A DNA stretch of 64,000 bases from Polystyrenella longa. GTDB taxonomy: Bacteria > Planctomycetota > Planctomycetia > Planctomycetales > Planctomycetaceae. Where the stretch lies: contig NZ_CP036281.1 in NCBI RefSeq assembly GCF_007750395.1, positions 5,541,001 to 5,605,000 on the forward strand, given 5' to 3'. Positions 46,364 through 57,820 of this stretch are shown one piece after another. Made by a program: the position numbers and the translations under genes. Within the stretch, counting starts at the first letter, position 1, and each line of letters starts with the position of its first letter. Below the pieces are notes generated by a model, which was given only the letters and a program-made list of their open reading frames with translations, was not told the origin of the DNA and ran no database searches.

Positions 46364-46521
46364 TCTAAACGCCAGTTGGCGTACCGTTTGTATAAAGGTA
46401 TTTTTGGCTGTAACAGCTTATTTGCCAATAGTATGCGTTTCAATCGTGTTTTCTTGTTTGATGATTCGCAAGAGTAAATATTGTAATTTCTGGCACACCG
46501 TGCCAAACCGGTTCGTTTGAT

Positions 46522-46540
46522 GCCTCCACATTTTGGAGGC
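46522..46540 (+). promoter_or_regulatory. Hairpin covering the recombinase ribosome-binding site
   Basis: GCCTCCA (46522-46528), a 5-nt loop, then TGGAGGC (46534-46540) form a perfect 7-bp hairpin. Its 3' arm contains the GGAGG Shine-Dalgarno sequence 7 nt before the ATG at 46547. In mRNA this would hide the ribosome-binding site; as DNA it could also be an operator. Confidence 0.6.
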
Positions 46541-46546
46541 TTTCAA

Positions 46547-48889
46547 ATGAAAGACTTTTCTAACGATTCTGAGTCCAATAAATCAAGTAAGCCCAACAGT
46601 TCGGGGCCGTATCTGTCCAAGAGCGAAAGGAGAAAAATCGAACAAGGGTTACCCTCTGAAGAGACGCGGCTGGCTATGGCCAGAACCTATCTTGATTTGC
46701 AGACACAATACTGGCCCGAGTTGGTTGAAGCGGGCGTATTACCTCAACTGACCGAAGCAAATGTAAAACAACTCGCCGACGAGTTTAAATCCGCATTCAT
46801 TACGGATTCACAACCATTTCCGAAACCACTGTCCGGAAAGGCGAACTGTGTGTACTTGCGGTATTCCGACGAAAATTCCAATAAACGGTCACTCGCTCAG
46901 CAGCTTAAGAATGTCCTCAGTAGAGCGAACAGTGACCGAAAATTCGTGTCTTGGAATCATATCTGTGCCGACGCCGCGATAAGTGGGACGACTCCTTTTC
47001 GTCGAGATTATCGTAAACTGCTGAATTGGATCACTAATAATTCTGATCAGATCGATCGGGCATACGTGGATGACCTGAGCCGGCTCAATCGAAATCTGGC
47101 AGAAAGCGTCAGCCTTAATCAACTCGCTATGGATAATGACGTATCGCTAATAGGTGTCACAGACGCGACGGACACTTCAGATCCGAATCTCATGATGATG
47201 AGCGTTTTTAACTCTTTACAGAACGAACAGTTCATCAACAGCCTTCGGCAGAAGGTAGAACGAGGTATGAACGACAGTTTTGAACAGGGAGGAAACCTGC
47301 ACCCGCCGTCATTCGGGTACAAGCTTGTCATGCTCAGGGATGCCGATGGCGAGCCTAAATTATCGCGTCAGGGAAAACCGATTAAGGAAAAGGTAATCAA
47401 CGAAGATGAAGCTGAATGGGTTAGAAAAATCTTCGACTGGTTCGTTTGCCAAAACTGGTCCCGCCAGAAAATTGCCAAGAAATTGAATACCAAAGAGGTT
47501 GGCGGCAAAAAGACCTGGGATTCTCGGAAGGTCCTGCAATTGCTCGAACGATCGGTTTATCGAGGTATTGAGTGTTATCGAACGTCTACTCAGAAGAAGG
47601 ATCGCAGATCGGGTAAAGTGAAGGTTATTCCTAAACCTGAATCTGAGTGGTTGAAAAGAGACGTCCCTCACCTGAGAATCACCTCTGACGATCTCTGGAA
47701 CCGTGCTCAGATCAAGTTGCAGATAACCAGATCGTTATACACTAAGAATCGGAAACCACGAGGGAGTCGTACAACCTTATCACCCACTCTGCTTGTCCGC
47801 CCAGTTTGTGGATACTGTAGTGCACGATTGCTATTGGCCCATTCCTCCAAATATCAGTCGCTGAGCTGCATGAATGGTCGCGAAAAGAAACATGACTGCC
47901 AACTGTCGACGCATAAATCAGTTCGAATTCTCAACAAAGCAATTCTGTCGAAGCTGCATCAAGAAATCTTCACCGAAGAATTCCTGCAAGCATTCTTTGA
48001 ACAGGCAAATCGAGAGCTCGAGCAGTTATTAAACGAACCTGCGGAAGATCTTACTCCTCTGAAGAAAAGGCTGGAGAAGCTGCTGAAGCAGGAAGCGAAA
48101 CTCACGACACTATTAACCGAGGAAGACGATTTGAATGCAATTCTGGAAGCTCTCAGAACCGTTCAGGCGGAGAAAGGTGAGATCGAGAGGAGATTGAGTG
48201 ACGCAGAAAAACATTCCTCTACACCTCCCAGCCCAATCGATCCACAATTCGCGATCGAATGCCTCAGAGATATCGAGACCCTTTTAAAAGAGGACGTGTC
48301 GCATGCTGCTCCAATCCTGGAGACTCTCACTGGTCCGATCCGGATCACCCAGGGAGAAATCGTCTCAGGGAAACGGAGTGCTGTATGGCATGCTGAGTTC
48401 ACGATCAACACCACTCAATTCATGGTCGAACTGAGCCGCGCCAGGAATTATCCAACGGCCGGTACTTGGGAGTTCCTGAATACTCGTAGTTGGACAATCT
48501 CCAAGGCTATCTCTACGGAGGTCGATCTCGTTTCTGTTCACGAAAAAAGAGCTCTGGAATTCCGAAGACTCCACGACAAAGGAATGAGTGTTTCGAGCAT
48601 TGCTCAGAAGGTGCGATGGAACGAAGAGTATGTTTCGGAGCTAATCCGGGCGTGTCAGGAAGACAGAAAGCCTGATCTCATTACACCTTTTTATCGAACT
48701 GACGCAGCTTCCAGACCACCAAAGAAGTCCGTGTTGATTAAAGATGACGTCCTGAGGCTTCGAGGGAACAAAGGTATGGCGTTCCGAAAGATCGCTTCCT
48801 GGCTGAATGCGAACAAGTCGATCAAAGTGAGCGCTCAGACAGTGAAACGGACTTGGGATGCTTACGCTCGATCTGAGCCCGAAGGCTGA
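46547..48889 (+). CDS. Large serine recombinase
   Basis: The start MKDFSNDSESNKSS at 46547 is chosen because GGAGG precedes it; an ORF start at 46517 has no such site. The product is 780 residues. A resolvase domain begins near residue 100 (CVYLRYSDENSNKRSLAQQL, where Ser in RYS is the likely nucleophile, then AISGTTPFRRDYRKLL and VDDLSRLNRNLAES). A recombinase domain follows (PPSFGYKLV, WVRKIFDWFV, WSRQKIAKKLNT) and a zinc ribbon (CGYCSARL... CMNGREKKHDC). A coiled coil precedes a long C-terminal extension with two HTH-like segments (SVSSIAQKVRWNEEYVSELI; AFRKIASWLN). It sits 184 bp from the tRNA scar and probably mobilised the adjacent island. Confidence 0.9.
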   Translation: MKDFSNDSESNKSSKPNSSGPYLSKSERRKIEQGLPSEETRLAMARTYLDLQTQYWPELVEAGVLPQLTEANVKQLADEFKSAFITDSQPFPKPLSGKANCVYLRYSDENSNKRSLAQQLKNVLSRANSDRKFVSWNHICADAAISGTTPFRRDYRKLLNWITNNSDQIDRAYVDDLSRLNRNLAESVSLNQLAMDNDVSLIGVTDATDTSDPNLMMMSVFNSLQNEQFINSLRQKVERGMNDSFEQGGNLHPPSFGYKLVMLRDADGEPKLSRQGKPIKEKVINEDEAEWVRKIFDWFVCQNWSRQKIAKKLNTKEVGGKKTWDSRKVLQLLERSVYRGIECYRTSTQKKDRRSGKVKVIPKPESEWLKRDVPHLRITSDDLWNRAQIKLQITRSLYTKNRKPRGSRTTLSPTLLVRPVCGYCSARLLLAHSSKYQSLSCMNGREKKHDCQLSTHKSVRILNKAILSKLHQEIFTEEFLQAFFEQANRELEQLLNEPAEDLTPLKKRLEKLLKQEAKLTTLLTEEDDLNAILEALRTVQAEKGEIERRLSDAEKHSSTPPSPIDPQFAIECLRDIETLLKEDVSHAAPILETLTGPIRITQGEIVSGKRSAVWHAEFTINTTQFMVELSRARNYPTAGTWEFLNTRSWTISKAISTEVDLVSVHEKRALEFRRLHDKGMSVSSIAQKVRWNEEYVSELIRACQEDRKPDLITPFYRTDAASRPPKKSVLIKDDVLRLRGNKGMAFRKIASWLNANKSIKVSAQTVKRTWDAYARSEPEG

Positions 48890-49447: not shown

Positions 49448-50955
49448 CGTACCGTAAAAAAACTCAGCCGAACTGAAAACACTACAAATTAAGGGGTCTG
49501 CGAGACACCATCGGCCTTGATTCTCAGACGAGTTGGCAACAACTCTCGTCGCTACATTCAGTACAATCGTTGTCTCCAGTCGTGAAGACTGGCAGCGATA
49601 CACGATTCGGGAGTGCGACGGCTCAGAGAATGGCTATAGTTGCCATAGTAACCCTCCCCTTCACTTTTGCAACTGATTAGATGGAAATTGTGATGCAGCC
49701 CTGGCACCTGCTGGTTTTCGCTCTGGTAAGTTGGGTGAATCGCGAACAGCAATTGGCGATTGAATACCTCAAGACCGAAAATAGTATCCTCCGCGATAAA
49801 CTCGGTAAGAAACGGATCCTACTGAACGATAACGAGCGTCGCCGCTTGGCGGTCAAAGGAAAACAGCTTGGTCGGAAGTTGCTGAGTGAACTCGGCGCGA
49901 TCTTCACTCCCGATACCATTCTCCGCTGGCACCGGGAGTTGATCGCCCGTAAATGGAACTACACTTCAAATAAACCTCGTATCGGTCGACCTCATATTCG
50001 GCGGAAGATCGTCGAACATATTTTAAGGTTTGCGAAAGAGAATCCCACGTGGGGAGCTGATCGAATTCAGGGTGATTTGTCCAACGTTGGATTTCACATG
50101 ACCGACGCGACTGTCAGGAATGTGCTCAAGTCGAACGGTATTGAGCCTGCCCCCGACCGTCCCGCTTCAATGTCCTGGGAGACGTTTCTCAAAGCTCACT
50201 GGGAAGCGATCTTCGCCGTTGATTTCATCACGGTAGAAGTCTGGAAGAAAACGGGTTTGACGACGTTCTACGTCATGGTGGTGATGGAGCTGAAGTCTCG
50301 TAAAGTCGAGATCGCAGGCATCACTACCAACCCGAATAAACAATGGGTGACACAAGTTGCACGCAATCTGACCGGCGACGATGGTTTTCTGGAGCATGCT
50401 TCGCATCTGATCTTGGATTGCGACACGTCGTTTCAACCACTGCGTTCGTTTCTGAAGGAACAGACTCAGATTGAACCGGTGCTGCTTCCGCCGAAAAGTC
50501 CCAACATGAATGCGTATCTCGAACGCTTTATGAGAAGTTTGAAATCGGAGTGCCTGAAAAAGATGATCTTCTTCGGCCAGCATTCTCTCGAAAGAGCATT
50601 GCGGGAATACGTTGCTCACTACCATTCTGAACGAAACCATCAGGGACTGGAAAACCAGTTGATTGATCCTGGTGAAGAAATTGGATGCGTCGCCGGCAAG
50701 ATCGAATGCAGAGAACGTCTCGGTGGGCTGCTCAAGTATTACTATCGCGACGCAGCTTGAATCAGCCTCGAATAGATGTCGGTCCTCGTGTTGTGATTTC
50801 CCGCTACCGTTGCGCTCGGAAGGTTATTTTCGCATTGAATCTGACAATCAGCTTCGAGCAGTGAAACGAATCTCGTCCGAAAACCATCGCTTATCAGCAA
50901 CATAACTACTTGAAATCACTTGTTTTCAATGTCGGCTGAATATGTTTACGATACG
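49448..50955 (+). mobile_element. 1.5-kb IS, copy E (intact)
   Basis: 1508 bp from CGTACCGTAAAAAAACTCAG to the right repeat ending ATGTTTACGATACG. The transposase is full length, so with copy A this is one of two apparently intact copies. Its right-end 310 bp are nearly identical to the fragment at 31293-31603, suggesting recent common origin. Confidence 0.9.
49681..50760 (+). CDS. rve-type DDE transposase of the 1.5-kb IS (copy E)
   Basis: 359 residues, uninterrupted, with TPDTILRWHREL, FAVDFITV, LILDCDTSF and NAYLERFMRSLK. The segment LILDRD of the other copies reads LILDCD here. If the first Asp is the catalytic one the enzyme may still work, but the Arg-to-Cys change is at a conserved place. 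It ends KYYYRDAA like the others. Confidence 0.9.
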   Translation: MEIVMQPWHLLVFALVSWVNREQQLAIEYLKTENSILRDKLGKKRILLNDNERRRLAVKGKQLGRKLLSELGAIFTPDTILRWHRELIARKWNYTSNKPRIGRPHIRRKIVEHILRFAKENPTWGADRIQGDLSNVGFHMTDATVRNVLKSNGIEPAPDRPASMSWETFLKAHWEAIFAVDFITVEVWKKTGLTTFYVMVVMELKSRKVEIAGITTNPNKQWVTQVARNLTGDDGFLEHASHLILDCDTSFQPLRSFLKEQTQIEPVLLPPKSPNMNAYLERFMRSLKSECLKKMIFFGQHSLERALREYVAHYHSERNHQGLENQLIDPGEEIGCVAGKIECRERLGGLLKYYYRDAA

Positions 50956-51017: not shown

Positions 51018-51344
51018 CTAGTCTATTGGCGATGATCTTTCAAGAGTCTTAAGAATGTGATCAAGACGATAATATAATCTGGAACAACGCATTGGAGGAA
51101 AAGGTTCCAAAGTACACACCATTCGAGTTTTTACTTGATGTGGATGATGCGTATCTACAATAATACCAATTGTTACGCATTCGCCTTCAGGAGTACTCAC
51201 CGTAATGAGCTTTGCGGATTCATCATTGCCAATATCTCGTATCTCTGTTTTCAGATCAATGCTATCTGCTCCATGCATATCTAAAATAATGTCTTCTAAT
51301 TTATCCGTCACTCTCTTGTCGAAGCGATAACCTCTCATCCCCAT
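51018..51344 (-). CDS. Candidate immunity protein for the Rhs tip at 51.3 kb
   Basis: 108 residues, starting one base after the Rhs stop codon (TAATATG arrangement), so translation is probably coupled. No signal peptide; mixed alpha/beta with segments such as VTDKLEDIILDMHGADSIDL and ECVTIGIIVDTHHPHQVKT. I recognise no family. Tight coupling to a toxin tip and A+T-rich composition like the tip support an immunity role. Confidence 0.65.
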   Translation of the reverse strand: MGMRGYRFDKRVTDKLEDIILDMHGADSIDLKTEIRDIGNDESAKLITVSTPEGECVTIGIIVDTHHPHQVKTRMVCTLEPFPPMRCSRLYYRLDHILKTLERSSPID

Positions 51345-51345
51345 A

Positions 51346-53877
51346 TTAAAAACCCCATCCCCTGAAAAAAGCTCTAGCAGCAGCAGTTACGCAACTGAAT
51401 GCGAAACCCGATTCTCCACCAACGATAACACTTTGAGGAAACAACACTGGAATTCCTGTAATCAAGCCACTGCTTGGAGTCCATGTATTATAGATTTGCA
51501 TGCGTCCGAGAGCACCAAAACCACTTTCTGATGTAGCCACTGCATGCTGCCATTGGCCATTTGCGCCGTATTTTACATGGAGGAAGAAGGGTTTTCCAGA
51601 TCGGCTTAGGGCAAGGTCCATTGTACCACCACCGGCTGCATTCCATGTCCAAACGGCCGCGGCGGCATACCCAGAAATTGTCGAGATCCATGCTAGAGAA
51701 TTTGTAGCGGTACCCAACCAGGAATTATTCAACCCTGTATGATTCCAATAAAAGTCACGTGCTTCATGCAGGTTATCAATGGAACGAAAAGTGAATGTGT
51801 CCAAGAGATTTAGATAACCAGCCATTGCTCCGTCTCGAAAACCTTTCCAAGCTCTGGAAATCTGGTCACGTGTAACAGTGCCTTTAAACACAGAGGTAAT
51901 AATGCCATTCTGTTCAGCGTTATTCAATGTGCTTACTGAATGATTATATGCATTTCCAACTGCTGGGATAAGAATAGACGCAAGCCCTGAAATAAGTGAT
52001 GTTGTTATAAGAAAGTTTGTCAATGAAAACATCCCCGTCGGATCAATCCCGTTCACCGGATCGCCGTGCGTATACAAATACTTGTGCAAACTCTGCGGAT
52101 CTCTCAGGTTTCCAAAGAACGGGTCCAGCCTATTGAAGCCACCCGTATCCGCATTGTAATACCTGGCTCGCAGGTATTGCTGCTGGATGCGGGTGTCAAA
52201 TTGTTCGCCGCTGTAGAGCATGCTCGTAACAGCAGTGGCTTCGTTGAATCCAATCGCGATTCCATAAGCATCATAGGTAAAGATTTGTGGAATGCTGTTC
52301 ACGACCGTCACCGCCGCCAACATGTTGGTCAACATACGAACGGAACCGTGACCATCGTGGAGCATGATGCTGTTCAGGCCGGTCGGGTTTGCGCTATCGT
52401 ATTTGACCTGTTGCAGAACATCGAGGCCGAGCGTGTAGATCACCCGTTCCGTTTCGGCCTGGCTGTTCAGGTTGTCCACGGTGACTTCTTCAATGACCTG
52501 TGAATAACCTGTGTGGTTCATCGGATCATTGAGATACGTCGTCGTTTCGTCAACTTCCAGGTTACTGTCGTAATCCGAGTCCACTGCATGATGGGCCGAA
52601 ACACGAATGCCCCGGTCATCGTACTCGAACGTAGTGATTTCCTGCCCACTGATCGAACCACTGGTGTAGGTGTCAATCGTGACTGTTTCCAACCGGCCTT
52701 GCAGGTTGTAATCGAACGACGTGTCGGTCAATACCGTGTTGGCATAAGTCGCTTTGACTTCCTTGCCCGTTTGCAGCGTGTTGGTGTAACTGTACGTGGT
52801 GGTCGTGTCGTCCGTTTCGAGGTTGGTACCATCGTCAACATTACCCACGACCTTGGTTTCGGTCAGCAGTTGATCGGAATCGTTGTAGGTATAGGTGTAC
52901 GTCTCATCGATATCCAAATCGAGATCCTGATCGACCGTCTTCTTCAGCCGGTTTCCGACGAGGTCGTAGGTGTAATTGGCTTCGAAGTCCAAAGCGTTAT
53001 CATGGCTGTCAAAGACTTCGGTTATTAACCGGCCCAAATCATCGTAAGTCCAACTGAACGCATCCACCAATGGCGTCCCGTTGTCCCAGCGGGTCTCGGT
53101 GGCAGCCGTTCGTTTGCCATCCGCCCGAACCGTGTAATCGTAACTAGCCAGTTTATCGTTATCGGAGAGATCGTTGGGCGTGCTGTCCGGTTCGTAATGT
53201 GTTAACACATCCAGCCGGTACAGGTCATCATATTCATAAGTGGTAATCAAGCCGTTCGCGAGATCAGTTCGGACGAGGTTCCCGACGGCATCATAAGAAT
53301 ACGTCGTCACCTCCGGTGTTGAGAGCGCGGAATCGTTGCGTTCATGCACCTCGACGGTTTTCAGGCGATTGAGCGAATCGTACGTGTACCGGAAATCGTT
53401 TTCGACGTCGCTCGGGTCACCAGTCGTCACGCGAGTCTTCAGGCCCGTCAGGTCGTCGTACTCGTAATTAAGGATCCCTTCGGGCGAACTGATCCTGGTG
53501 ATGCGGCCATCATCGTCGTACGTGTAATACGTTGTGCCCCGGTCATCGGTCATACTCGTTTTACGGTACTGATCGTCGTAGGTGTAACTGACCGTTTCAT
53601 CCGGTGTATCGACATCGGGATCGGCGGACGAGTTGAAGTATTGCAGTTCATCGAGCAGACCTTCGTCCGTGAAGAGCCGGTCCATCACGTTTCCTTCGAA
53701 GTCTTCGCTCCGGTACTGGCGATCCTCATCGTCGTACCAGGACTGTTCATCCCCCGTGACGGGCAGGGTGCGCGTCAGTTGCTGGTTCTGCGCATTGAAG
53801 GTGAAGTCCGTTTCCCGATCGAGCGGATCGGTGATCTGCGTCATGTTCCCGTAGACATCGTAGTCGTACTCATACAC
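51346..53877 (-). CDS. Rhs/YD-repeat protein, N-terminus lost, unassigned C-terminal tip
   Basis: The open frame gives 843 residues from a GTG at 53877 and in fact stays open to about 53972, where IS-derived sequence begins, so the true N-terminus is deleted. YD repeats fill residues 1 to about 560 (TYDDLGRLITEV, YEYDDLYRLDVLTHY). The Rhs core end follows: RARYYNADTGGFNRLDPFFG, then YLYTHGDPVNGIDPTGM near 600-617. After this the composition switches to A+T-rich and a 227-residue tip follows with two hydrophobic stretches (LITTSLISGLASILIPAVG; WISTISGYAAAAVW) and a C-terminal FSCVTAAARAFFRGWGF. The conserved-looking Cys might be catalytic; the toxin class is unknown. A small gene follows after 1 bp. 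Confidence 0.85.
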   Translation of the reverse strand: MYEYDYDVYGNMTQITDPLDRETDFTFNAQNQQLTRTLPVTGDEQSWYDDEDRQYRSEDFEGNVMDRLFTDEGLLDELQYFNSSADPDVDTPDETVSYTYDDQYRKTSMTDDRGTTYYTYDDDGRITRISSPEGILNYEYDDLTGLKTRVTTGDPSDVENDFRYTYDSLNRLKTVEVHERNDSALSTPEVTTYSYDAVGNLVRTDLANGLITTYEYDDLYRLDVLTHYEPDSTPNDLSDNDKLASYDYTVRADGKRTAATETRWDNGTPLVDAFSWTYDDLGRLITEVFDSHDNALDFEANYTYDLVGNRLKKTVDQDLDLDIDETYTYTYNDSDQLLTETKVVGNVDDGTNLETDDTTTTYSYTNTLQTGKEVKATYANTVLTDTSFDYNLQGRLETVTIDTYTSGSISGQEITTFEYDDRGIRVSAHHAVDSDYDSNLEVDETTTYLNDPMNHTGYSQVIEEVTVDNLNSQAETERVIYTLGLDVLQQVKYDSANPTGLNSIMLHDGHGSVRMLTNMLAAVTVVNSIPQIFTYDAYGIAIGFNEATAVTSMLYSGEQFDTRIQQQYLRARYYNADTGGFNRLDPFFGNLRDPQSLHKYLYTHGDPVNGIDPTGMFSLTNFLITTSLISGLASILIPAVGNAYNHSVSTLNNAEQNGIITSVFKGTVTRDQISRAWKGFRDGAMAGYLNLLDTFTFRSIDNLHEARDFYWNHTGLNNSWLGTATNSLAWISTISGYAAAAVWTWNAAGGGTMDLALSRSGKPFFLHVKYGANGQWQHAVATSESGFGALGRMQIYNTWTPSSGLITGIPVLFPQSVIVGGESGFAFSCVTAAARAFFRGWGF

Positions 53878-53972
53878 CGGGGCGGTCAGTGTACCGCCGT
53901 TCTGCGGATCCGCGACTTGCGGTAACGTGACCGTGCTGAGCCGGCCTTCGCTGTCGTAACTGAACGTGCGCG

Positions 53973-54441
53973 TGAGCTACCGCTGCGCTCGGAAGGTCAT
54001 TTTAGCGTCGAATCTGATAGCAGAGTTCAAGTCGTGAAACGGATCTCGTTCGAAATTTGCCACTCTCCAGAGATATAACCGCTTGGAATCACTCGTTTTC
54101 AACTTCGGCTGAATATTATTTCGATACGGGGGCTCGATAATCAATTGATTGAACCTAGTGATGAAGTTGGATGCGTCGCCGGCAAGATCGAATGCCGGGA
54201 ACGTTTCGGTGGGCTGCTCAAGTATTACTATCGCGACGCAGCTTGAATCAGCCTCGAATAGATGTCGATCCTCGTGTTGTGATTTCCCGCTACCGTTGCG
54301 CTCGGACGGTCATTTTCGCATTGAATCTGACAATCAGCTACGAGCAGTGAAACGAATTTCGTCCGTAAACCATCGCTCGTCTGCAGCATAACCACTTGAA
54401 ATCACTCGGTTTCAACGTCGTATGAATATTTTTACGATTCG
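53973..54441 (+). mobile_element. Two right-end fragments of the 1.5-kb IS in tandem
   Basis: 53973-54128 is the terminal 156 bp of one IS (from GAGCTACCGCTGCGCTCGG to CGATACG). Two bases later, 54131-54441 is the terminal 311 bp of a second, more diverged one, starting at the same internal point (CTCGATAATCAATTGATTG) as the fragment at 31293. Both face the same way. The first abuts and truncates the Rhs gene. Confidence 0.82.
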
Positions 54442-54498: not shown

Positions 54499-54762
54499 TC
54501 ATATGGAATAGAGGATTTCCGCTGTTCCTGTTATATCATTAACTTTAATGGTTAATAAATCCGCCGACTTTGCAGGGCAATATGGAATTACTACCTCCAA
54601 CTTGACTAGATAATTCCCTTTAGAACGGGGGCTTCCCATCTCCCTTTCGTAATCTTCTTTGGATAAATGAACTACACGTTTACAGCCCATTACAGTCTCG
54701 CCCTGGTTGGTTGCAAACTCAGATGCAAGCTGGACGGCTGTGTCTTCCGAAATAACTACCAC
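54499..54762 (-). CDS. Small protein of unknown function, possible orphan immunity gene
   Basis: 87 residues from a GTG start that lies directly at the edge of an IS right-end fragment, so the N-terminus may be truncated. Sequence begins VVISEDTAVQLASEFATNQG and contains YLVKLEVVIPYCPAKSADLL. Compact alpha/beta pattern; family not recognised. It lies between the two Rhs toxin loci on their strand, where displaced immunity genes are often left. Confidence 0.5.
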   Translation of the reverse strand: MVVISEDTAVQLASEFATNQGETVMGCKRVVHLSKEDYEREMGSPRSKGNYLVKLEVVIPYCPAKSADLLTIKVNDITGTAEILYSI

Positions 54763-56080: not shown

Positions 56081-57820
56081 TCACGAATTACTCATGAATT
56101 GCTCATATGTTAATAAAGCTTGATACTGCTTAACCCTTGCTAAAAGACTGGTTGCAGGTCCAAATTCATTCTGGGAAACCGGCCCAATTATAAGCTTCAC
56201 TCTACTCGGGTGCATCGGGATGTTAAACACTGGTCGTCCTAAGGCGATTGTCGGATCGCTGACGCCTGTTCGGAGCTCGGCCATCTGTTTATTGTCAATC
56301 CAATCCAGGAACGTATATAGCGGCAATGTCCAAGATAGTCCTTGCTGAATGGTAGGTCTATTATAATTTGTCGGGCCAAATCCACCTCGATACGATTTCG
56401 CCCACTTAGGGAGGTTTTGGTTGATAATAGCCCTGCCATCTTCAGATCCAGGATAATTGTTTGCTAAAATTATCCCGCTTTTCCGCAGCATTTCTCTCAT
56501 CCATTTTCGCGTGAAATCTTGTTGTGTTAAAGAGGTGTCATCCCAACCTCCACCTATGTCCGAGTGAACACCACGGAACAGTCGTTGGTATATACGTGAT
56601 GAAGCCACATTTGTCGCTGGAAAGAAATTTCTATTTTCATCAAATGCCATTGCGTGGTAGGCAGTTTGAACATTTGCAGCCAGAGATAAATCTACCCCGG
56701 GATTGACTGGGTTGCCTGGATCTAATGAGCCAACGACATCAAATAGTCCCATGAATTTAATCGGATTTATAATTCCCCTGTTCTTCAAAAGTTCGTGCGC
56801 AAAATCTAATGTTTGCATTGCTCCCCTACTGAAGCCAATCGCAATAATATTTTGTTGTGCTCCCCAGGGCGAAAGCGCATCTTCCACAAAATCTAAACCA
56901 CGATCGATAATTCTGCGATACCCATGCCCCAATCCTCCCCCAAGAAGCTCATCGGGTCCCCATGCATCATCATCTAAAGGATTGCCAACTCCACGGAAAT
57001 ATCGATTGGCAACAGCATCACCTGATAGACTATAATCCTTCCATATTTTCCACACGTTTGTCATGTAATTTGTTGAGCCATCTGAGTTTGTTGGACCATC
57101 ATGATTTCCTGTTCCATCAAAAGCCACAAATATTTTCCCGCTCGGATCTCCATAATGAATTGGGTCGTTCTTTGCATACGAATATCGATGAAGCGTACTT
57201 GGAGTAAGTTTGTCGCCTTGGTATGGATCAAGTGCGAAAAATCTTCCTACATTAGTGTCGTAGTATCTTGCACGTAAATACTCCATATCCAATGAGGTGT
57301 CGAAATACTCACCTGTGAACAATCGGTCTGTTTGAGTTGCATCCGTTGTATTAGCCGTTTGCGTGAAGCCAATCGGGCTCCCATACGCGTCATAAGAGTA
57401 CGTTTCCGCTATGTTCAATGACTCTTCGACCAGCAGACGCGTCGATCCGCGTACGTCGGACAAAAAGAACTCTGACACTGTTCCCGCACCAGTATCGTGT
57501 TGAGCCAATACATTTAATCCGTAGCTAAAAGTCCGAATGGGATCCATCGTAGTGACATCCCGTTCTTCCAGCACCTGGGAATGGCCTGTGGGGTTAAAAT
57601 GACCTATCAGATAAGAGACAGATGTCGTGACAGGCGTTCCTCCATCAACACTAACAGTCTTGTCACTTCGAATCCGTTCATCACTGGAATCGTAAACATA
57701 GGAAGCTGTAATATCCAGCAAATAACCATTATCGTTCCGCGTAGAAGTAGTGTCTGTTAAACGCCCTTTAGCATCATAGTGACCTGCCCCCTTTAACCGA
57801 GTCCAGATCCTGATATACAA
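56081..57820 (-). CDS. Rhs C-terminal fragment fused to Tle1-like (DUF2235) lipase toxin
   Basis: 579-residue frame; real homology starts at about residue 14 (HYDAKGRLTDT) because the first codons lie in the IS3 left end, so the Rhs N-terminus is gone. Rhs core end: SDVRGSTRLL, RARYYDTNVGRFFALDPYQG (184-203), YSYAKNDPIHYGDPSG (213-228). The tip begins at once: FVAFDGTGNHDGPTN (231-245), TNVWKI, GLGHGYRRIIDRGLDFVEDAL, nucleophile motif GFSRGA (Ser331), LFDVVGS (Asp361) and RGVHSDIGGGW (His419). This is the DUF2235/Tle1 phospholipase arrangement known from type VI effectors. With the triad intact the lipase could be active if expressed and delivered, but the truncated gene lacks an obvious start and promoter. 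Confidence 0.88.
   Translation of the reverse strand: MYIRIWTRLKGAGHYDAKGRLTDTTSTRNDNGYLLDITASYVYDSSDERIRSDKTVSVDGGTPVTTSVSYLIGHFNPTGHSQVLEERDVTTMDPIRTFSYGLNVLAQHDTGAGTVSEFFLSDVRGSTRLLVEESLNIAETYSYDAYGSPIGFTQTANTTDATQTDRLFTGEYFDTSLDMEYLRARYYDTNVGRFFALDPYQGDKLTPSTLHRYSYAKNDPIHYGDPSGKIFVAFDGTGNHDGPTNSDGSTNYMTNVWKIWKDYSLSGDAVANRYFRGVGNPLDDDAWGPDELLGGGLGHGYRRIIDRGLDFVEDALSPWGAQQNIIAIGFSRGAMQTLDFAHELLKNRGIINPIKFMGLFDVVGSLDPGNPVNPGVDLSLAANVQTAYHAMAFDENRNFFPATNVASSRIYQRLFRGVHSDIGGGWDDTSLTQQDFTRKWMREMLRKSGIILANNYPGSEDGRAIINQNLPKWAKSYRGGFGPTNYNRPTIQQGLSWTLPLYTFLDWIDNKQMAELRTGVSDPTIALGRPVFNIPMHPSRVKLIIGPVSQNEFGPATSLLARVKQYQALLTYEQFMSNS

Follow-up and report, generated by a model that had tools for sequence, protein, structure and literature searches.

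The cassette and its flanks

The window analysed here is a 64,000-nucleotide stretch of the Polystyrenella longa chromosome, and positions are counted from its first letter. On the minus strand, the list of open reading frames gives an Rhs frame of 843 codons with a GTG start (51346-53877), in which RHS/YD repeats and the Rhs-associated core were detected with Pfam and NCBIfam up to the start of a C-terminal tip. The features of the locus are as follows:

49681..50760, plus strand: insertion-sequence transposase (rve_3; PF13683, E 1e-12), downstream of the cassette
50643..50942, plus strand: direct repeat of family D2 (transposase 3′ end and tail), the cassette's downstream flank
51018..51344, minus strand: immunity candidate, 108 aa, ATG start, gap of 1 nt, no 19-residue hydrophobic window above 1.2
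51349..51633, minus strand: candidate toxin domain, tip residues 133-227, with H151 at 51577-51579 and C213 at 51391-51393 (five-member family, leave-one-out)
51634..51858, minus strand: pretoxin-like module, tip residues 58-132 (GFRDG...GYAAAAVWTWNAAG), with a relative in a G284 protein (E 8.4e-10)
51349..52029, minus strand: exchangeable C-terminal tip, 227 residues; DNA identity to the genome's other Rhs copies stops at about 52026
52030..52275, minus strand: Rhs-associated core domain, residues 535-616, directly before the tip (TIGR03696, E 5.4e-13; coordinates derived from residue numbers)
51346..53975, minus strand: 5′-truncated (orphan) Rhs gene (RHS_repeat PF05593, E 5.1e-18); stop-to-stop open frame 51349-53976, 876 aa; first listed start GTG at 53877
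53949..54131, plus strand: insertion-sequence tail copy where the Rhs frame opens (repeat family D1, 66%)
54129..54428, plus strand: second copy of the D2 direct repeat, 91% identical, the cassette's upstream flank

We found that the 5′ part of the Rhs gene is missing: the frame opens at 53976, within the insertion-sequence tail copy, and the N-terminal delivery part of a complete Rhs toxin is absent from the same gene. For these two reasons, the locus was filed as an orphan module and not as a complete Rhs toxin. Both sides of the cassette carry a 300-nt direct repeat, 91% identical between the copies, which includes the end of the transposase gene.

In the surroundings, a large serine recombinase (790 aa; PF07508, PF00239) is encoded close to the cassette (46517-48889, plus strand), and the insertion-sequence tail is present in four near-identical plus-strand copies (31451, 50803, 54289 and 54796; 0-2 mismatches over 45 nt). 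Two of them, at 54289 and 54796, stand between small frames and are not accompanied by a complete transposase gene; an 87-aa frame between two of the tails (54499-54762, minus strand; no Pfam match) is possibly an orphan immunity gene. In addition, a second Rhs fragment lies on the minus strand at 56081-57820, and its tip matches a Tle1-like phospholipase catalytic domain (PF09994, E 5e-23).

The tip and its planctomycete relatives

The tip comprises Rhs residues 617-843 (227 aa), after GIDPTGM, and its C-terminal end is CVTAAARAFFRGWGF. Counting itself, the Rhs core is matched 11 times in its own chromosome. Two copies near 2.34 Mb (L093) share 77% and 82% DNA identity with it up to the tip boundary (about 52026) and bear tips different from that of the window; for one of the two, a weak resemblance to HNH nucleases was seen (WHH, Colicin-DNase), under curated cut-offs. 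Weaker core matches at two further loci (L094, 68%; L096, 63%) likewise end at the tip boundary. The earlier note had called the tip an exchangeable module, marked by a switch in composition at the core boundary. Exchangeability is borne out by the end of DNA identity to two other Rhs copies with differing tips. The switch in composition holds in part: GC content shifts from 53.5% in the core to 41.3% in the linker and pretoxin-like module, with 39.1% in the 108-aa gene, but the toxin part itself (48.3%) lies at the window mean (48.8%). Near the other Rhs cassettes at L093 and L094, look-alike transposase frames of 359-379 aa are found, as though the element and Rhs tips moved together, and at L096 (about 5.761-5.765 Mb) a related Rhs core stands inside one open frame of 9080 residues.

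The frame, its length and the two hydrophobic stretches that the same note had seen after GIDPTGM agree with our hydropathy analysis, in which 19-residue windows exceed a mean Kyte-Doolittle value of 1.2 at two separate peaks, tip residues 6-24 (2.0) and 187-205 (1.36). An alanine-rich stretch at residues 113-131 stays under 1.2 and aligns with alanine-rich stretches of the relatives. The tip opens with a linker (residues 1-57) that includes a hydrophobic stretch, followed by a module (residues 58-132) for which the name pretoxin is our own reading. In the G284 protein, the relative of this module is followed by a C-terminus without a match to the toxin profile, and the toxin domain was not found there (351 of 2000 shuffles score as high). 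Since a relative of the pretoxin-like module precedes a different C-terminus in G284, the hydrophobic stretch of this module is more plausibly a part for translocation or linkage than the toxin. The remaining segment, the candidate toxin domain, has conserved glycines, a G[IV]PxLxP motif and a final helix-like segment with [NS]C. Cys213 is the sole cysteine of the tip and is aligned in all five members of the family described below, and His151 is kept in four of the five (His in three of the four relatives, Gln in G299).

The last ~95 residues of the tip have four distant relatives in the planctomycete genomes searched (G299, G509, G716 and G810), of which G509 is the same as the Schlesneria record JAQGHU010000049.1 (L062). 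In a leave-one-out analysis, each of the five members, scored against the profile of the other four, outscored all of its own 5000 shuffles (0/5000). With the joint profile, which contains the members, the five reached 112-122 bits and the next frame 15.9 bits (5498 frames, 102 loci); after rescoring of all 102 loci, the best frames below the five members were in L074 (15.9 bits), L102 (15.7 bits) and L077 (14.6 bits). The carriers are Rhs proteins in the window and in Schlesneria, whereas in G716 and G810 they are proteins of ~300 aa whose hydrophobic N-terminus is signal-like; in planctomycetes, the domain occurs on both Rhs and small secreted carriers.

The homologue-search draws overlap, and their counts are therefore not additive. 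One draw matched 13 of 392 genomes at E ≤ 0.01; the own genome and G299 were accepted, G284 was accepted for the pretoxin-like module only, and the G327 match was dropped because it looks like chance. Of the other matches of this draw, which were left out as well, five resemble what we take to be pilin-type proteins, and four what we take to be biotin carboxylase. The further draws gave 18 of 392 (own and G299 accepted, G284 for the pretoxin only, 15 dropped), 16 of 170 at E ≤ 0.1 (own, G299 and G509 accepted, 13 dropped), 13 of 397 (own, G299, G509 and G716 accepted, 9 dropped), 5 of 130 (own and G299 accepted, 3 dropped) and 3 of 119 (G716 and G810 accepted, G799 dropped). L033, L040 and L044, which belong to the 13 dropped from the draw of 170, were over the HMMER inclusion line in a small set and were dropped because they matched only in part; L100-L102 were also dropped though over that line in a small set. 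L102, which covers the Cys segment, could be a remote relative of the toxin domain.

Neither the tip nor the 108-aa protein gave a credible match in Pfam, NCBIfam, PHROGs, PADLOC or PDB sequences, the best sub-threshold rows being from PHROGs for the tip (E 0.048) and from Pfam for its neighbour (E 0.16). The best PDB sequence matches were an antibody chain for the tip (E 0.056), which is not credible, and ranaspumin-2 for the 108-aa protein (E 0.086), taken as chance. These profile and PDB sequence searches agree with the earlier assignment of the tip to an unknown class. In addition, none of the five family members had a Pfam match at E ≤ 10, the best PDB profile match was a phage baseplate protein at E 0.8, and AlphaFold returned no fold for the tip from a two-row alignment (pLDDT 32.6, pTM 0.25). 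A contig scan with one pattern confirmed 1 of 467 stretches, that of Schlesneria (G509). Relatives of the tip were found in 0 of 170 viral contigs in both searches, and the tip had no match in the plasmids or phages searched. The toxin-domain family is absent from the libraries searched and is so far found only in planctomycetes, a provisional range, as the searches beyond planctomycete genomes covered the one-pattern contig scan and the viral, plasmid and phage sets.

The gene downstream of the tip

A 108-residue immunity candidate one base after the Rhs stop had been proposed before, and the coordinates and the 1-nt gap to its ATG are as claimed. The 108-codon stretch was stop-free in frame in 2 of 5000 dinucleotide shuffles. 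A same-strand downstream frame is present beside all five family members (93-124 aa; gaps of 1, 6, 8, 15 or 17 nt), which speaks for the immunity assignment; in G716 and G810 the listed frames are longer (190 and 116 aa), and an ATG within them was chosen as its start. Translational coupling of the tip and the 108-aa gene is a candidate feature, with the 1-nt gap as its sole basis.

The neighbours of G716 and G810 are related to each other (E 2e-10). That all five neighbours form one family was rejected, as this holds only for the G716-G810 pair: against the G716+G810 profile, the number of shuffles scoring as high, out of 5000, was 106 for G509, which is suggestive, 394 for the window's candidate, which is thus not measurably related to the other neighbours, and 1526 for G299, for which no relation was seen either. 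The divergence fits fast-diverging immunity genes, and the window's candidate is identified by its position. A homologue draw with the 108-aa protein gave 4 of 392, namely the own genome and three weak matches (E 0.005-0.009) inside long frames. AlphaFold modelled the protein alone as a low-confidence helix, three strands and a helix (pLDDT 57.4). Of 633 Foldseek matches of this model at E ≤ 10, none was at E ≤ 0.001, and no fold is therefore claimed for the 108-aa protein. Judging from the sequences, it is highly probable that the tip and the 108-aa protein form a toxin-immunity pair.

Possible mode of action and closest known systems

Taken together, the results make it likely that the orphan Rhs cassette holds a new toxin/immunity family, although one whose general kind is well known. 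In the explanation that we prefer, a 5′-truncated Rhs core carries a tip built from a hydrophobic linker, a module of pretoxin type and a toxin domain of ~95 residues, and the gene one base further downstream would encode a cytosolic immunity protein. The toxin domain would probably be a thiol enzyme that acts in the cytosol of the target cell, with Cys213, which seems to open the last helix, as the nucleophile and an upstream histidine (151, or 162) as the base; the order of these candidate residues is that of circularly permuted papain-like toxins. Of this picture, the anatomy, the module boundary, the family, the invariant Cys and the paired frame are shown by the sequences, and toxicity, neutralisation, site of action, helix and chemistry are inferred. 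The cytosol is our guess for the site of action because the 108-aa neighbour shows no membrane segment by hydropathy. Since there is no delivery part, the cassette in its present place would have to gain a complete Rhs core by recombination, or else be kept as an immunity reserve. A small cytosolic Cys/His enzyme toxin is thus our best guess from sequence, and we put the chances at about even that the frames at 51346-53877 and 51018-51344 form an orphan Rhs toxin/immunity cassette with all of these properties jointly, that is, a truncated core, an exchangeable tip, cytosolic immunity and a Cys213/His thiol enzyme. This confidence was slightly higher before a recheck; it was lowered because the neighbour starts of two members had been chosen and because only its position pairs the neighbour in the window with the tip.

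Other explanations were weighed with the help of parts of the published descriptions (PMC3482391, PMC12994826, PMC3142127, PMC10318531, PMC3150448 and PMC7043789). The tip might act on membranes, with the linker, the Ala/Gly-rich stretch and the hydrophobic GIPVLFP segment forming a pore in the target membrane and the cysteine being structural. The hydrophobic windows of the tip and its relatives and the Gly/Ala-rich sequences of G716 and G810 are consistent with a pore, but we consider it unlikely: a neighbour that lacks a membrane segment by hydropathy is a poor fit, the Ala-rich stretch is part of a module that also precedes another C-terminus (G284), and one cysteine is invariant across five divergent members. 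It is doubtful, though conceivable, that the domain is an enzyme of another kind (a nuclease, or a deaminase-like or protein-modifying enzyme) whose cysteine is not a papain-type nucleophile. The toxin domain has no recognisable fold or family, and its remaining invariant residues are Gly, Ala, Pro, Leu and Trp, as such an enzyme would allow; against it, the five-row alignment has no invariant acidic residue, His, Lys or Arg, unlike most of the nuclease signatures compared from a table of PMC3482391.

The state of the locus bears on two further explanations. That the cassette is merely a recombination fossil, decayed after loss of its 5′ part, would agree with an Rhs frame that opens at an insertion-sequence tail and with further short Rhs pieces in the genome. 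We find this improbable, as the tip and its neighbour are both intact open frames, the latter free of stops in so few shuffles (2/5000), and as the orphan CDI modules tested in the work covered by PMC3150448 are functional toxin/immunity pairs. By analogy with Salmonella Rhs toxins, which according to PMC7043789 act also as internal toxin-antitoxin loci, a promoter within the frame could drive expression of the orphan, which would then act on its own cell; the lack of a delivery part and this precedent would suit such a role, to which we give a small chance.

Within the preferred explanation of a cytosolic thiol enzyme, a papain-like mechanism like that of the permuted papain-like toxins Tox-Act1 and TseH is suggested by analogy and is held only tentatively. 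Permuted NlpC/P60 enzymes, which include these two toxins, have the His first and then the Cys near the C-terminus (PMC12994826, PMC3142127), as with His43 before Cys151 in Tox-Act1 (PMC12994826), and the order of His151 (4/5) and Cys213 (5/5) fits this. The His-Cys spacing is 62 residues in the tip and 105 and 108 in two permuted examples. The GD motif is described as highly conserved across NlpC/P60 (PMC3142127), and the GD dipeptide, the first-strand motif, is absent from the tip. hhalign to the genome's own C92 protein gave nothing, and LRAT (PF04970) had no match in the own genome. Because of the lack of a profile match, of a C92 match and of the GD motif, the short spacing and the unusable model, the toxin domain was not filed as permuted NlpC/P60. 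In a bolder version, which seems unlikely to us, the domain would represent a new fold class of compact (~95 residues) Cys/His enzyme toxins that has spread among planctomycetes on unrelated carriers with fast-diverging small immunity proteins; such a toxin might be a minimal permuted papain-like enzyme that modifies proteins or lipids. For this candidate toxin-domain family outside the libraries used, Cys213 is a clear residue to mutate and the paired gene the one to test.

Among known systems, Tox-Act1 and TseH, as described in PMC12994826, share with the tip a candidate His before the Cys, the Cys near the C-terminus and the toxin context, but the spacing in the tip is much shorter, and comparison with permuted families detected no similarity to any of those tested; in addition, the Tox-Act1 neighbour is membrane-associated, and that of the window has no membrane segment by hydropathy. 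The likeness to Peptidase_C92/YiiX-like permuted papain enzymes (PF05708; PMC3142127) is in the candidate residue order only, with neither the GD motif nor a profile match in the tip. The polymorphic toxins compiled by Zhang et al. 2012 (PMC3482391) have the same arrangement of Rhs repeats, pretoxin, C-terminal toxin and immunity gene, although the papain-like toxins compared from it are given Cys first; Tox-HDC does have the order H, D, C, but its description is that of a Rossmann-like domain that typically lacks immunity genes. The orphan rhs-CT/rhsI and cdiA-CT/cdiI modules (PMC3150448) are a further close system, where orphan CDI modules keep functional toxin/immunity pairs and Rhs loci are described with similar orphan modules. 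The cassette differs from them in being planctomycete and in that its candidate toxin and neighbour are unrelated to any profile searched; it resembles them in the truncated carrier, the variable C-terminus after a conserved DPxG-type motif, the small gene directly downstream and the mobile elements nearby.
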